Below, piece after piece: positions 44,563 to 48,884 of a DNA stretch of 64,000 nt. The position numbers and the translations under genes were made by a program. This stretch comes from Brevibacterium antiquum. Lineage in GTDB: Bacteria > Actinomycetota > Actinomycetes > Actinomycetales > Brevibacteriaceae. Every line of letters begins with the position of its first letter. Positions within the stretch are counted from its first letter, which is position 1. The stretch covers positions 248,001 through 312,000 of the forward strand of contig NZ_JABASX010000005.1 in NCBI RefSeq assembly GCF_016107655.1, read 5' to 3'. The notes beneath the pieces were generated by a model, which searched no databases, was not told where the DNA came from, and worked only from the letters and a program-made list of their open reading frames with translations.

Positions 44563-45678
44563 ATGCCTGAATCTGATCACCGGCCACTCGTCGCAGTCCT
44601 CTTCGGCGGACGATCGAGCGAACACGCCGTCAGCTGCGTCACTGCTGCCGGGGTCATCCAGGCCATCGACACCGACGCCTACCGTGTTCTGCCGATCGGC
44701 ATCACGAAGGCCGGTGTGTGGCGCATCGTCGAAGACTGGTCGACGATGGCCTTCGACCCGGCTGACATGCCCGAGGTCGTTGACAACGGAACCGAGGTCA
44801 TCCCGCCGATCTCCGCGCAGGGCTCACCTCTGCTGCAGCGGGACGCCGAGGGGCAGTACACCGAGCTCGGATCCGTCGACGTCTTCTTCCCTCTCCTGCA
44901 CGGCCAGTACGGGGAAGACGGAACTCTGCAGGGCCTGTTCGAACTCAGCGACACGGCCTACGTCGGCTCCGGGGTCTTCGCTTCGGCGGCGAGCATGGAC
45001 AAGCACTACACGAAGTCCCTCATGGCCCACGCCGGAATTCCGACGTGCCCCTGGGAGCTCGTGACCGAAACCATGTGGGATTCCGAGCAGGCTGACGCGC
45101 AGGCTCGGATCACCGGACTTGGTCTGCCCGTATTCGTCAAACCGGCACGGGCAGGATCGTCCATGGGAGTCAGCCGCGTCGAGTCCGCCGAGGGACTGGA
45201 TCAGGCGCTGCGCTCTGCCTTCGAGCATGATTCCAAGGTCATCGTCGAACCACAGGTCGTCGGCCGCGAGATCGAATGCGCGGTGCTCGGCTCTGTTCAC
45301 GACCGTCAGGTCCGCGTCTCGTTCCCCGGAGAGATCGAAGTCTCCGGCGAGCACTCGTTCTATGACTTCGAGGCCAAATACCTCAACCTCGCCGATGCGC
45401 AGCTGACCTGTCCGGCGCGCGTCGATGAGAAGACGACGGCCCGGATCCAGGAACTCTCGGCTCAGGTCTTCCGGCTCTTCGATTGCACAGGACTCTCACG
45501 AGTCGATACCTTCGTCACAGATGCCGGTGACGTCCTCATCAACGAGATCAACACGCTCCCGGGGTTCACCCCCACCTCGGCGTACCCGTTCATGTGGTCG
45601 AACTCGGGCATCGAGTACCCGGCGCTCATCTCAGAGCTCATCACCATCGCCCTGGTCGACCACGCCCGCACTCACTGA
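44563..45678 (+). CDS. ddl: D-alanine-D-alanine ligase
   Basis: A 371-residue ATP-grasp enzyme that joins two D-alanines for peptidoglycan. VAVLFGGRSSEHAVSCVTAAGV is the conserved start, PLLHGQYGEDGTLQGLFELSDTAYVGSGVFASAASMDK the serine-loop region, and INEINTLPGFTPTSAYPFMW the end of the active site. AAGGA stands about 8 bases before the ATG. The order gpsA-ddl-DUF3515-thiL is common in actinobacteria; here a nuclease-like gene is inserted between ddl and DUF3515. Confidence 0.96.
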   Translation: MPESDHRPLVAVLFGGRSSEHAVSCVTAAGVIQAIDTDAYRVLPIGITKAGVWRIVEDWSTMAFDPADMPEVVDNGTEVIPPISAQGSPLLQRDAEGQYTELGSVDVFFPLLHGQYGEDGTLQGLFELSDTAYVGSGVFASAASMDKHYTKSLMAHAGIPTCPWELVTETMWDSEQADAQARITGLGLPVFVKPARAGSSMGVSRVESAEGLDQALRSAFEHDSKVIVEPQVVGREIECAVLGSVHDRQVRVSFPGEIEVSGEHSFYDFEAKYLNLADAQLTCPARVDEKTTARIQELSAQVFRLFDCTGLSRVDTFVTDAGDVLINEINTLPGFTPTSAYPFMWSNSGIEYPALISELITIALVDHARTH

Positions 45679-46054
45679 GTCCCGAGTCGCGCACCCATTC
45701 AGTCCCGCTGGATCTGAGTCACGCACGCGCTGAGTCACGCACGATATGTAGGCGTCTGCGGCTCCTGAGCACACCTGTAACCCCGAGCACACCTGGCAGG
45801 CAGGCTGCATCTGCCATTGGGCATCGAGGGGACTACTTAGCGTCGAGGGGTCACGCTATAAACTCGACCCTCGTCGATAAGTGGTCCCGCCGGTGCTGAT
45901 GGCCGACGCTGCTCCCGAGCTTTGGCGCGATCTCAGGTGCGTCGAGACGGTAGCGGGGGTCGTTTCAGTGTCGGGGCGGCAACTTGTGACCATGGGCACC
46001 GAGGTGGTTTCGGACTGACCGCAGTGTGCCGCTGTCCTTTTGAGCCTCCGCCTG
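45679..46054. other. Gene-poor stretch after ddl
   Basis: The 376 bases hold no supported gene. The first 75 bases contain degenerate tandem copies of the ddl end, clearest in CTGAGTCACGCACGCG and CTGAGTCACGCACGAT near 45714-45745. Palindromic element copy 1 follows at 45824-45889. The remaining part up to the nuclease-like gene shows nothing I can name. Confidence 0.7.
45824..45889. repeat. Palindromic element, copy 1
   Basis: GGGACTACTTAGCG at the left and TCGATAAGTGGTCCC at the right form an imperfect inverted repeat of about 22 bases per arm around an AT-richer centre. A related 65-base sequence lies at 47132-47196. The two flank the nuclease-like gene. As a hairpin it could also end the ddl transcript. 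Confidence 0.65.
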
Positions 46055-47011
46055 TCAGCCGAATTCAGCGATTGCTGCTCTGATCTTGGTGAATTCTCTC
46101 GCCCGGAAGAGATCTGCCCAAACGAGGTTGAAGACGCGGTATCCGGCGTTGAGCAGCTTCATATGCCGTTCATGGTTCTCAGAGCTGGCGCGATCTGGAC
46201 CGGCGTTGTTGAGATAGTACTTCCCCACTCCATGGAACTCGACGATCAGAGGATGCTTGTCATGCCGGAAGTCATTGCGAGCGATCCACGCTCCGGCACC
46301 GTCGTAGGTATTCACCTGCGGGATCATCCCGATGATGTTGAAACGAAAGAACTTCACTGCGCATAGCGCCTCACCCGAGGATTCGTGAGCCGGACTGGCC
46401 AAGTCGAAGGCTTGGGCTGCCCGCCTGCAGCCTCGTGTGCCCGATCGGATGCTGCTGTGCAGTGATTCGTGGGACGCGAGACCTCGACGCAGTGCCTCAG
46501 AGATGAAAGGCACTGAGACTTCAAGCGGATAGTCAGTGGCAAGGTCGACAAGGGTTCTGCCGACGGTTGTCACAGGCAAATCGCCGACATGTGTGAGTTC
46601 TTCGGAATTCAGCGAACGGTCACGGGTCCGCAGAGTCTTCTTCGCTCGGTGAAATCCGGGCCGAACCACCTCCGCTGAATCGGTTGCCGGATATGGCGGG
46701 TCCAGGCCGTGTATGAGTGCTGCGGACACGTGAGAGAAGACCGCTCCTGCCGGGAGTTCGTCGGCATAGGAGCGGATCAGCACCCTGAGCCACTCCGAGT
46801 TGTCTCGGATGTCCCCATATCGTCGCGGGTATTCTGTGGCAGTGGTGTTGTGGAGTAGGTGGAGCGGCATATGGTCCGTCGTGTTGCATGGCGAGTTCAA
46901 AACGAAGTGCCCGCGACGTATCCTGCGGAAGCAACAGTTCAGTGCATCGCGAATGTCTGCCTCGGTGAATCCGAGGTCATGGAGTGCCTTGGATCTGAAC
47001 ACCGAGACCAT
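46055..47011 (-). CDS. AbiEi-like / DUF559-type nuclease-fold protein
   Basis: A 318-residue protein. The first half (FRSKALHDLGFTEADIRDALNCCFRRIRRGHFVL) looks like an AbiEi-type N-terminal winged-helix domain, and TTVGRTLVDLATDYPLEVSVPFISEALRRG is typical of this actinobacterial group. The C-terminal region DFRHDKHPLIVEFHGVGKYYLN has the D...EXG..K spacing of a Vsr/DUF559 nuclease fold, followed by RVFNLVWADLFRAREF. The role is unknown; relatives lie in variable regions and may be toxin-antitoxin or defence-related. Its promoter region is AT-rich compared with the window, and related palindromes flank it, so it may be acquired. An in-frame TTG at 47050 is a second possible start. Confidence 0.7.
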   Translation of the reverse strand: MVSVFRSKALHDLGFTEADIRDALNCCFRRIRRGHFVLNSPCNTTDHMPLHLLHNTTATEYPRRYGDIRDNSEWLRVLIRSYADELPAGAVFSHVSAALIHGLDPPYPATDSAEVVRPGFHRAKKTLRTRDRSLNSEELTHVGDLPVTTVGRTLVDLATDYPLEVSVPFISEALRRGLASHESLHSSIRSGTRGCRRAAQAFDLASPAHESSGEALCAVKFFRFNIIGMIPQVNTYDGAGAWIARNDFRHDKHPLIVEFHGVGKYYLNNAGPDRASSENHERHMKLLNAGYRVFNLVWADLFRAREFTKIRAAIAEFG

Positions 47012-47131
47012 TGTGCCATTATGATCCTCAAGTGCTATTAAATGCAACAAAAGCCATTAAAAAACAGCAAAAAGCATGTAACTATTACATTGGTCATTGC
47101 TCGCCGTTGGCAGGCGCTTCGGTCACTTCTG

Positions 47132-47196
47132 TCGAGAGGACTACCTTTCATCCAGCGGCTACCGTATAACGTCTCCCGTCGATGCTAAGTGGGCCG
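47132..47196. repeat. Palindromic element, copy 2
   Basis: This copy shares TCGAG-GGACTAC at its left and GTCGAT-TAAGTGG-CCG at its right with the element at 45824-45889, with a related TATAA-containing centre. The inverted repeat here is more decayed. The 230 bases from the nuclease-like gene to DUF3515 hold nothing else except an AT-rich promoter-like part near 47030-47095. Confidence 0.6.
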
Positions 47197-47241
47197 TTTG
47201 ATGACAACTCATCATGGCTGGGAGTCAGTGATGCTGGTGAC

Positions 47242-47760
47242 TCAGCTGTCGAGGTCCTGGGCTCCCACGCACTTGGCCTCAGGCTTCACAGCAGTCAGCG
47301 CCGGTGAGATCGCTGCGAGTACATTGTTGCCCGATTCCGCCTTGCGGTTGACGAGGACCTCGACTGCCGGGGTACGACCGTAGCTGGTGAAGACCCAGGT
47401 GTCGTCCTCCTCGGAGGCCTTGGAGATCCAATCGACGCTGCTCACGCTCACGCACTGATCGGTGGTCGGCCCGGGTGGGGTGACCCCGCAGCGCACGACT
47501 GCGATGTTGGGATCTCCCCACGCCTTCGTGCCCTGGGAGGATGTCGTGCGTGACTTCGCGCCGGCGATCTCATCGGGCATACGCAGCATGATGTCGGCGC
47601 AGTCGGGATTCTGTGCGTCCTGAGCAGGCTCAACGACGACCGTGCGCTCACACCCTGCCAGGCTGATTCCGGCCACCACAGTGGCGATGGCTGCCAGGGC
47701 GATGGTGCGCGCCTTCCGAGGCGAAGGTCGAGGCGACGGGCGGAGGCGACGAGATCTCAT
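47242..47760 (-). CDS. DUF3515 family lipoprotein
   Basis: A 172-residue secreted protein. A basic start and hydrophobic helix (RTIALAAIATVVAGISLAGC) end in the lipobox LAGC, so it should be a lipoprotein. The mature part has the DUF3515 pattern: CADIMLRMPDEIAGAKSR, AWGDPNIAVVRCGVTPPGP and DWISKASEEDDTWVFTSYGRTPAVEVLV. Its function is unknown. Position next to thiL is conserved in actinobacteria. TACGGT stands 6 bases before the ATG, indicating a leaderless start. Confidence 0.88.
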   Translation of the reverse strand: MRSRRLRPSPRPSPRKARTIALAAIATVVAGISLAGCERTVVVEPAQDAQNPDCADIMLRMPDEIAGAKSRTTSSQGTKAWGDPNIAVVRCGVTPPGPTTDQCVSVSSVDWISKASEEDDTWVFTSYGRTPAVEVLVNRKAESGNNVLAAISPALTAVKPEAKCVGAQDLDS

Positions 47761-47792: not shown

Positions 47793-48884
47793 ATGACCCG
47801 ACTGTCCGAACTTGGCGAATCACACGTGCTCGAACGCATCCTCTCTCACAATCGCACCGGTTCGCAGGTGATCATCGGACCCGGAGACGATGCCGCGGTG
47901 ACCGCGGTTGACGGCAACCTGGTGTCGACCGCGGACATGCTCGTGGAGAACGAGGACTTCACCCGCGCCTGGCTCGACTGGGGCCGGCTCGGGATCAAAG
48001 CCGCAGCGCAGAACCTCTCCGATGTCTGCGTCATGGGCGCCAGGCCTCATGGGCTGCTGGTGTCACTGGCCGTGCCGAACTCGACCGAGATAGAGGACCT
48101 CGAAGCGCTCTTTGCCGGCATTGTCGCCGAGGCGGGGCGTGCCGGTGAGGAACTGGGCTGCGAGATCCCGATCATCGGTGGAGACCTCTCATCCTCGGGC
48201 CTCATCGTCATCGCGATCACTGCGTTGGGCACCGTCGCCGATCATGCAGCGATCACCCGCTCGGGTGCGCGGCCGGGCGACTCGATCTACCTGGCAGGCA
48301 CCATCGGACGCGCCGCAGCCGGATTGGATCTCCTCTTCGCCGGTGTCGACGGGAACGCCGGGGGCGCCCGGGACGCCGGGGACGCCCGGGACGCCGGGGA
48401 CGCCCGGAACGATCCTCAACTCGATGAAAGCCTGACGTCACTCATCACCACCCAACTGGCTCCACAGCCGGACTATGCGGCCGTCCTGAACATGCGGGCA
48501 GCCTCGGCGATGATCGATGTCTCCGACGGGCTGAGCACGGATATGGGACGGATCGCGTCGGCTTCGGGAGTCCACGCTCGGATCGACCGCGCCTCACTCC
48601 AAGAGCTCATCGATGAGCTGCTGCCTGCAGCACGGCACCTGGTGGGCGCCATCGAGGGTGCTGAGTCGGACGAAGAGACCGCACAGGCTGCCGCAGAGGC
48701 CGAGGAGTTGGCGTTGGCCTGGGTGCTCAACGGGGGAGAGGACCATGGCTTCGTCGCGTCGTCGGCGCAGTTCGACACACCTCCGGTAGGCTGGCGGAGA
48801 ATCGGAGAGATGAGAGTCGGCAGCGGGGTCAGTCTCGACGGCGCACCGGTGCCGACGAGCGGCTTCAGCCATTTCGGGAAGTGA
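47793..48884 (+). CDS. thiL: Thiamine-monophosphate kinase
   Basis: A 363-residue kinase that makes thiamine diphosphate from thiamine monophosphate. GSQVIIGPGDDAAV at residues about 25-40, ENEDFTRAWLDWGRLGIKAAAQNLSDVCVMGARPHG and IPIIGGDLSS are the family metal and ATP motifs, and MIDVSDGLSTDMGRIASASG is in the second half. Residues about 185-206 (GNAGGARDAGDARDAGDAR) are an extra loop coded by three 18-bp minisatellite units. TAACCT lies 6 bases before the ATG. The next gene starts one base after its stop. Confidence 0.93.
   Translation: MTRLSELGESHVLERILSHNRTGSQVIIGPGDDAAVTAVDGNLVSTADMLVENEDFTRAWLDWGRLGIKAAAQNLSDVCVMGARPHGLLVSLAVPNSTEIEDLEALFAGIVAEAGRAGEELGCEIPIIGGDLSSSGLIVIAITALGTVADHAAITRSGARPGDSIYLAGTIGRAAAGLDLLFAGVDGNAGGARDAGDARDAGDARNDPQLDESLTSLITTQLAPQPDYAAVLNMRAASAMIDVSDGLSTDMGRIASASGVHARIDRASLQELIDELLPAARHLVGAIEGAESDEETAQAAAEAEELALAWVLNGGEDHGFVASSAQFDTPPVGWRRIGEMRVGSGVSLDGAPVPTSGFSHFGK
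48353..48406 (+). repeat. 18-bp minisatellite inside thiL
   Basis: Two perfect copies of GGACGCCGGGGACGCCCG (48371-48388, 48389-48406) follow one degenerate copy (48353-48370). The repeat is in frame and codes for DARDAG. Confidence 0.95.

Follow-up and report, generated by a model that had tools for sequence, protein, structure and literature searches.

The ddl-DUF3515 site and its insert

The window, a 64,000-nt stretch of the Brevibacterium antiquum genome (contig NZ_JABASX010000005.1, positions 248,001 to 312,000), carries between ddl and a DUF3515 gene an insert that, by its list of open reading frames, holds only one long plausible gene, a nuclease gene with a palindrome on either side (Table 1). 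The insert is bounded by comparison with the empty site of two close relatives, and by both comparisons it is slightly wider than its two palindromes; a repetition of GAGCACACCTG at the left edge makes that edge uncertain by ~18 nt. Apart from an 11-nt repeat that the site itself already had next to it, no target duplication was seen. The open reading frame at 47793-48884, on the far side of the DUF3515 gene, contains an in-frame tandem repeat at 48357-48420, which reads ARDAGDARDAGDARN in translation.

Table 1. Parts of the ddl-DUF3515 site, in window coordinates.
Feature	Coordinates	Strand	Remarks
ddl, left neighbour	44563..45678	+	convergent with DUF3515 gene
Whole insert	45796..47240		by comparison with the empty ddl-DUF3515 site of two close relatives (G044 aligned, G004 read)
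Left palindrome, copy 1	45821..45896		downstream of nuclease gene
Nuclease gene	46055..47011	-	AbiEi-antitoxin-like fold and Vsr / I-Bth0305I-like catalytic domain; ATG at 47011 is the likely start codon, judging from the invariant M14 of alignment A1
Longer ORF of nuclease gene	46055..47050	-	start TTG 47050
AT-rich stretch, upstream palindrome to start codon	47012..47130	-	presumed promoter
Right palindrome, copy 2	47131..47200		upstream of nuclease gene; degenerate
DUF3515 gene, right neighbour	47242..47757	-	

An earlier sequence-only reading had proposed two related palindromic elements at 45824-45889 and 47132-47196. Their relatedness is borne out, with 45 of 66 aligned columns identical (68%) and a score that none of 1000 shuffles reaches, and their palindromic character is confirmed by DNA folding for copy 1 (z -3.4) and not for copy 2 (z +0.9). 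The shared arms, searched as GGACTAC-N20..48-TAAGTGG, occur at exactly two places in the 4.25-Mb genome, which are these two copies; a reversed control of the pattern also matches twice, so it is the position of the matches and not their count that is informative. The left arm of copy 1 repeats a unit, TCGAGGGG, at 19 nt, and at this lag the left arms of the two copies match at 11/19 and 9/19 positions. Elsewhere the same genome has two diverged lone palindromes similar to the window's type (L002 1497-1570 and L003 1499-1565); by eye, they lie at the 3′ ends of genes.

The same reading had placed one nuclease-like gene between these elements and had taken ddl and the DUF3515 gene to be neighbours that are normally adjacent. 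The gene is indeed a single minus-strand frame, and both neighbours are confirmed. A search of 57 Brevibacterium genomes with the DUF3515 protein yielded loci from 30, one per genome and the own genome included: 22 have the two neighbours side by side without the nuclease, one is ambiguous, and seven hold the nuclease (the own genome, G046, G056, G015, G052, G016 and G049). Read by eye, the gene is flanked by the repeats on both sides in all seven, and in none of them does it stand at this site without the repeats. The idea of a gene cassette framed by a small repeat is supported by the empty sites in close relatives and by the repeat pair that accompanies the gene. One nuclease-free site, that of G047, holds a lone palindrome of the window's family, and the 72% homolog in that genome lies on another contig; the other 21 show no similar palindrome by eye.

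An AbiEi-like fold joined to a Vsr-like nuclease domain

The protein had been called AbiEi/DUF559-like from its sequence, a description that holds by fold and, for AbiEi, by PADLOC, which assigns AbiEi to 23/23 family members, and fails by family model: for the window protein, Pfam gives no match at E 1e-3 and NCBIfam none at E 10. A sequence search of the PDB with the nuclease likewise gave no match. In the AlphaFold model of the window protein (mean pLDDT 88.5), residues 15-219 match the AbiEi antitoxin fold (6y8q, Z 10.5 over 168 residues), while Rv2827c (Z 8.2) is matched by residues 16-232. The domain at residues 221-331 matches the catalytic domain of I-Bth0305I (3r3p, Z 12.2, rmsd 2.4, 95 residues) as well as NGO0050 (Z 11.6) and Vsr (Z 10.7). 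The invariant residues of a 23-member alignment include E223, E227, D260, E271 and K277, which may constitute a PD-(D/E)XK-type site. At E up to 1, the 23 members match 14 Pfam families, including DUF559 (10/23) and REase_MTES_1575 (4/23), and the Y1 transposase model is absent from these 14. With ddl and the DUF3515 gene as its neighbours, the window's gene has no AbiEii nucleotidyltransferase toxin gene beside it. Median dN/dS values of 0.11-0.19 in five ortholog groups indicate that the nuclease is under purifying selection. Both AbiEi and Rv2827c are described as binding 23-bp inverted repeats in their own promoters and repressing them, the Rv2827c promoter carrying four repeats (PMC7319586).

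Matched palindromes across the protein family

The own genome encodes 11 homologous nuclease genes (counted from 15 match rows), and nine of them have a flank pair exceeding 30 shuffles each, L006, L009 and L016 narrowly; the flank pairs of L008 and of the broken gene L013 are not above shuffles. The copies of a pair are alike within one gene and unlike between genes, and at L011 they match in 69/70 columns, non-palindromic positions included. Many paralogs thus have a palindrome pair of their own, and palindromes are also dispersed without a gene, both of which go beyond what had been seen in the window: its locus is one case of something larger. The broken paralog (L013/L015, G000:C11:41115-41705) has a palindrome that was found on one side only.

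Homologs of the nuclease occur in 54/57 genomes of the genus. We scored the similarity of left and right flanks at the 95 loci with both flanks available. The cut was the 95th percentile of 1500 randomly drawn comparisons between loci; 77 of the 95 pass it (median 77 vs 23), compared with none of 30 ordinary ORFs of similar length (median 25). The window's own pair, with an automatic score of 31 under the cut of 41, is among the misses, as are its ddl-site orthologs in G046 and G016 (36 and 37), while those in G056, G015, G052 and G049 pass (44 to 61). In 64 of the 77 passing loci the left segment is more palindromic than 98% of its shuffles. The two copies lie in direct orientation at 45 of these loci and in inverted orientation at 32; a median of 95 bp separates the upstream palindrome from the start codon, and a median of 12 bp separates the stop codon from the downstream one. 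One nuclease gene, L040 (G004:C4), is flanked by a 59-bp direct repeat, 138-197 nt left and 248-307 nt right of the match, that is not palindromic in look and is perhaps the duplicated 3′ end of a neighbouring gene.

Beyond the genus, at least 251 of 394 genomes of the class match the protein (E 1e-10; the best five candidates per genome scored). Pairs at 34 more distant loci, two of them from Brevibacterium, were held against their own cross-locus 95th percentile, which 21 pass; five of these 21 are weak (scores 39-49), one of the five being a 20-nt repeat and not a palindrome. Across 19 families, defined as proteins under 60% identical, palindrome arms match at a 19-nt lag with a value of 0.461, whereas 200 shuffles average 0.267 and reach 0.307 at most, and this lag ranks first in 10/19 families and in the top three in 15/19; at L137, L138, L147 and L161 it is not outstanding. 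The 19-nt lag suggests repeated units read by a protein, two per arm.

Palindrome similarity tracks protein identity (Mantel Spearman 0.44, 0/2000 permutations) in a set of 47 dereplicated loci picked from those passing the pair cut. Between elements, none of the pairs below 60% protein identity has a palindrome score over 41, against 78-96% of those above 60%; within elements the median score is 79, a value favoured by the selection of loci. Taken domain by domain, the correlation is 0.28 for the wHTH, 0.46 for the middle and 0.46 for the nuclease, so the DNA-binding domain is not singled out. Similar elements almost always share a chromosomal site (in a comparison for which pairs under 45% identity were subsampled), so that position confounds the correlation between protein and palindrome. 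Pairs of ~60-66% identity at different sites are mixed: L134 scores 52-64 against L122, L126 and L128, L028 scores 29-47 against six ddl-site elements, and several others are at background.

One site, four palindrome types

A second site, between an amidohydrolase-like gene and bcp, holds the nuclease in 30/40 genomes (absent in nine, ambiguous in one). All 30 occupied loci have a left/right pair score of 42 to 139, and by reading the pairs fall into four types, A (19 loci), B (5), C (5) and D (1); several of the unoccupied sites hold other hairpins. The nuclease stands in the same orientation in 30/30, which, together with the near-constant site of similar elements, led us to reject a frequently jumping element.

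G015 carries type A and G016 type C at this site though the genomes are very close, G016 being ~98% identical to G015 around the site except in a ~2.8 kb tract that is 99.6-100% identical to C-bearing G003 (otherwise ~88%) and that ends at most ~100 nt from the right palindrome. To judge from these identities, one cassette has taken the place of another while the locus stayed the same. Some 3.4 kb further on lies a second such tract, which has no cassette, so the transfer to G016 needs no more than ordinary homologous recombination. In G013 the bcp site holds a lone type A palindrome whose outer flanks both match occupied relatives, as would be expected if two flanking copies had recombined; alternatively, it may be the state before insertion.

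Palindromes dispersed away from the nuclease

We searched the type A palindrome in the 57 genomes, scoring the best candidates, up to 16, per genome. All 19 genomes whose bcp site holds a type A nuclease have at least 20 match rows (mostly two per place), vs 2/38 others, with a Fisher p of 3e-13 for a cut picked after seeing the data and with kinship ignored; the type A nuclease was scored at the bcp site only, which was examined in 21 of the 38 comparison genomes. The two exceptions are G013, with its apparent solo remnant, and G016, with its recent swap. A first look listed, per genome, 65 to 97 type A candidates for 14 of the 19 and 36 and 37 for another two; the remaining three, which include the own genome (~10 places), have 12 to 18. 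Some copies may be missing from the own assembly, given that own contigs end inside type A palindromes (G000:C1:1-49, C16:495457-495514, C19:1-54 and C23:248484-248541). In genomes that have its nuclease, type A occupies from about ten up to several tens of sites, and it is rare elsewhere. The possibility raised for the window, an abundant intergenic repeat with no tie to the gene, is not borne out: palindromes of the window's type are rare in its own genome, and type A, the abundant one, is abundant almost exclusively in genomes that have, or until recently had, its nuclease.

At 26 type A loci, some of them orthologous and three of them cassette copies, a crude ORF call puts the palindromes often close behind stop codons, with 15/26 between convergent genes. 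One locus of G046 (C6; L426 1404-2605) has two type A palindromes ~1.1 kb apart around an alcohol-dehydrogenase-like gene and no nuclease, the bracketed gene being either a chance neighbour or carried cargo. A type A palindrome at another G046 locus (L427 1471-1533) corresponds to a 12-nt remnant in the own genome (L428 ~10870), as a deletion between 7-bp repeats would leave. Comparing these two genomes for an insertion polymorphism of a solo palindrome, we rejected one site because the own genome has undergone a deletion of this kind there and found a second ambiguous, with no clean gain.

Palindrome types at orthologous dispersed sites were read by eye. Site X has type A in G046, which has the A nuclease, and type B in G044 and G004, which have the B nuclease. 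Site Q has A in G016 and, by coordinates, G015, B in G004 and G044, and C in G020, which has the C nuclease. At site Y, type A in G046 and the own genome corresponds to another palindrome family in G044, and site P has type A in G016 and, by coordinates, G015, with no such palindrome in G004, G044, G052, G056 or G020. The palindrome type equals the bcp-site nuclease type in 10/13 genome-site pairs that bear a palindrome, two G015 pairs being by coordinates only. The three mismatches are G044 at Y and G016 at Q and P, where type A stands beside a cassette that is now C; the recent A-to-C swap would explain the latter two.

In another actinobacterial family, f27, the palindrome end motif AAATGATCAYGT stands at both outer ends of 5/7 nuclease cassettes and occurs 0 to 208 times per genome in 12 genomes, the reversed motif occurring 0 times in all 12. 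None of 30 such places has a nuclease within the 1.5 kb examined. Two of the 30 (L342-L371) carry the motif as an 88-bp inverted pair.

Discussion

Sequence comparison reveals matched pairs, a 19-nt architecture and a link between type A dispersal and its nuclease. On balance, we favour, as the simplest account to take in all these observations, the reading that these are minimal selfish cassettes of palindrome, nuclease gene and palindrome, REPIN/RAYT-like in lifestyle and run by an unrelated, non-HUH enzyme. We infer that the nuclease, and not another enzyme, drives dispersal by binding, cleavage and copying. The AbiEi-like part would read a palindrome whose arms each hold two repeated units at a spacing of 19 nt, and the Vsr/homing-type domain would nick or cut there. 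Repair of the break could then copy the cognate palindrome between the two flanking copies, by which the pair would stay matched, or onto other intergenic sites at gene 3′ ends, leaving dispersed solo copies, and could copy the palindrome together with the complete cassette into the corresponding locus of a different cell, replacing the allele there. Recombination between the flanking copies would delete the gene and leave a solo palindrome behind. Type replacements at orthologous sites, apparent solo remnants and purifying selection are likewise seen in the sequences. We entertain more tentatively a genome-wide overwriting drive, in which the nuclease would copy its own palindrome both to new sites and over rival types at the same sites, so that a change of the home allele would be followed by later conversion elsewhere.

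An unlikely alternative is that the palindromes are operators, where the AbiEi-like part would bind solely to control the expression of its own gene, perhaps along with that of others, with a nuclease activity unrelated to the repeats; pairs would then match because one protein constrains both its sites. The promoter binding and repression described for AbiEi and Rv2827c at 23-bp inverted repeats (PMC7319586), the likeness of the 19-nt units to protein sites and the position of the upstream palindromes, a median of 95 bp before the start codon, all speak for it. An operator is less expected a median of 12 bp after a stop codon, however, or at the tens of further places that type A occupies away from its gene, and the agreement of non-palindromic positions at L011 argues for copying and not for site constraint alone.

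We give still less credence to dispersal by some other enzyme, such as a RAYT or an IS200-like transposase, beside whose palindromes AbiEi-nuclease genes would merely have inserted. Dispersed intergenic palindromes are typical of REPs (PMC8266576), and by eye some copies contain GTAG, whether internally or at their 3′ edge (the type A 3′ edge, L011, and single B and C copies). The 5′ edges of types A, B and C, however, read CTACC, AACCTCC and AGCAACC by eye, with no constant GTAG; nuclease clades are flanked on both sides by their own palindrome, and type A abundance tracks the type A nuclease. Least probable is that the palindromes are terminators or insulators that were duplicated along with the gene, so that the match of the pair would be a by-product of insertion into a terminator: the convergent spacers and stop-codon proximity of dispersed type A (crude ORF call) and the other hairpins at several unoccupied bcp sites would suit this, but termination needs no conserved 19-nt sub-repeat, the bcp pair varies among A, B, C and D and yet matches left to right in 30/30 occupied loci, and 0/30 ordinary genes have matched flanking hairpins, for which reason we reject a plain terminator pair as the whole story.

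If the selfish-cassette reading is true, an unrelated second class of enzyme keeps and spreads cognate palindromes, and this lifestyle arose more than once. It would also suggest a function for a common and unexplained type of actinobacterial protein, and it would offer a natural series of nuclease-target pairs from which DNA specificity could be read out. Among the best matches in the open-access PMC literature, we found no link between DUF559/AbiEi nucleases and palindromes; our results suggest that in Brevibacterium and other actinobacteria these cassettes form a class of small selfish DNA that has so far been overlooked.

Comparison with known systems

The cassettes share features with several known systems. 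Like the AbiE type IV toxin-antitoxin systems, whose AbiEi proteins bind inverted repeats, they encode an AbiEi antitoxin fold, but the window's gene lacks a neighbouring nucleotidyltransferase toxin gene and is fused to a nuclease domain. DUF559 and REase_MTES_1575 provide the C-terminal domain family of some members, whereas the window protein has no match to them and the family models are silent on paired palindromes. A classical insertion sequence has terminal inverted repeats and a target duplication; here, the orientation of the pairs is mixed and the ddl site shows no duplication apart from the 11-nt repeat next to it.

The catalytic domain shares its fold (Z 12.2) with that of I-Bth0305I, a free-standing homing endonuclease of the EDxHD/Vsr-like kind, and the single allele replacement, with its ~2.8 kb conversion tract ending near the right palindrome, may resemble the co-conversion of flanks by free-standing homing genes, but a second tract, free of any cassette, lies nearby. 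The differences are that the DNA-reading part is AbiEi-like, that the gene is bounded by two copies of its presumed target, whereas a homing gene interrupts and so protects its target, and that further copies of this putative target are dispersed.

RAYTs, which are HUH transposases, are the best explanation so far for dispersed bacterial palindromes. RAYT genes are vertically inherited, and REPINs are commoner where a RAYT is present (PMC8049555). The cassettes are similar to REPIN/RAYT systems, as described for those (PMC8049555, PMC8266576), in that long-persisting genes are tied to palindromes, and in that dispersed intergenic palindromes are commoner with the gene, here for type A only and with kinship ignored. 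They differ in their enzyme, an AbiEi and Vsr-like nuclease in place of an HUH (Y1) tyrosine transposase, and in their palindromes, which are ~55-75 bp long with a 19-nt repeated unit, whereas those of REPIN/RAYT systems measure 20-50 nt and have a conserved tetranucleotide (GTAG or CGTC) in front of them. By eye, types A, B and C give no constant GTAG at the 5′ edge, and some copies have it elsewhere. Unlike REPIN/RAYT systems, moreover, whole cassettes are exchanged here as alleles.
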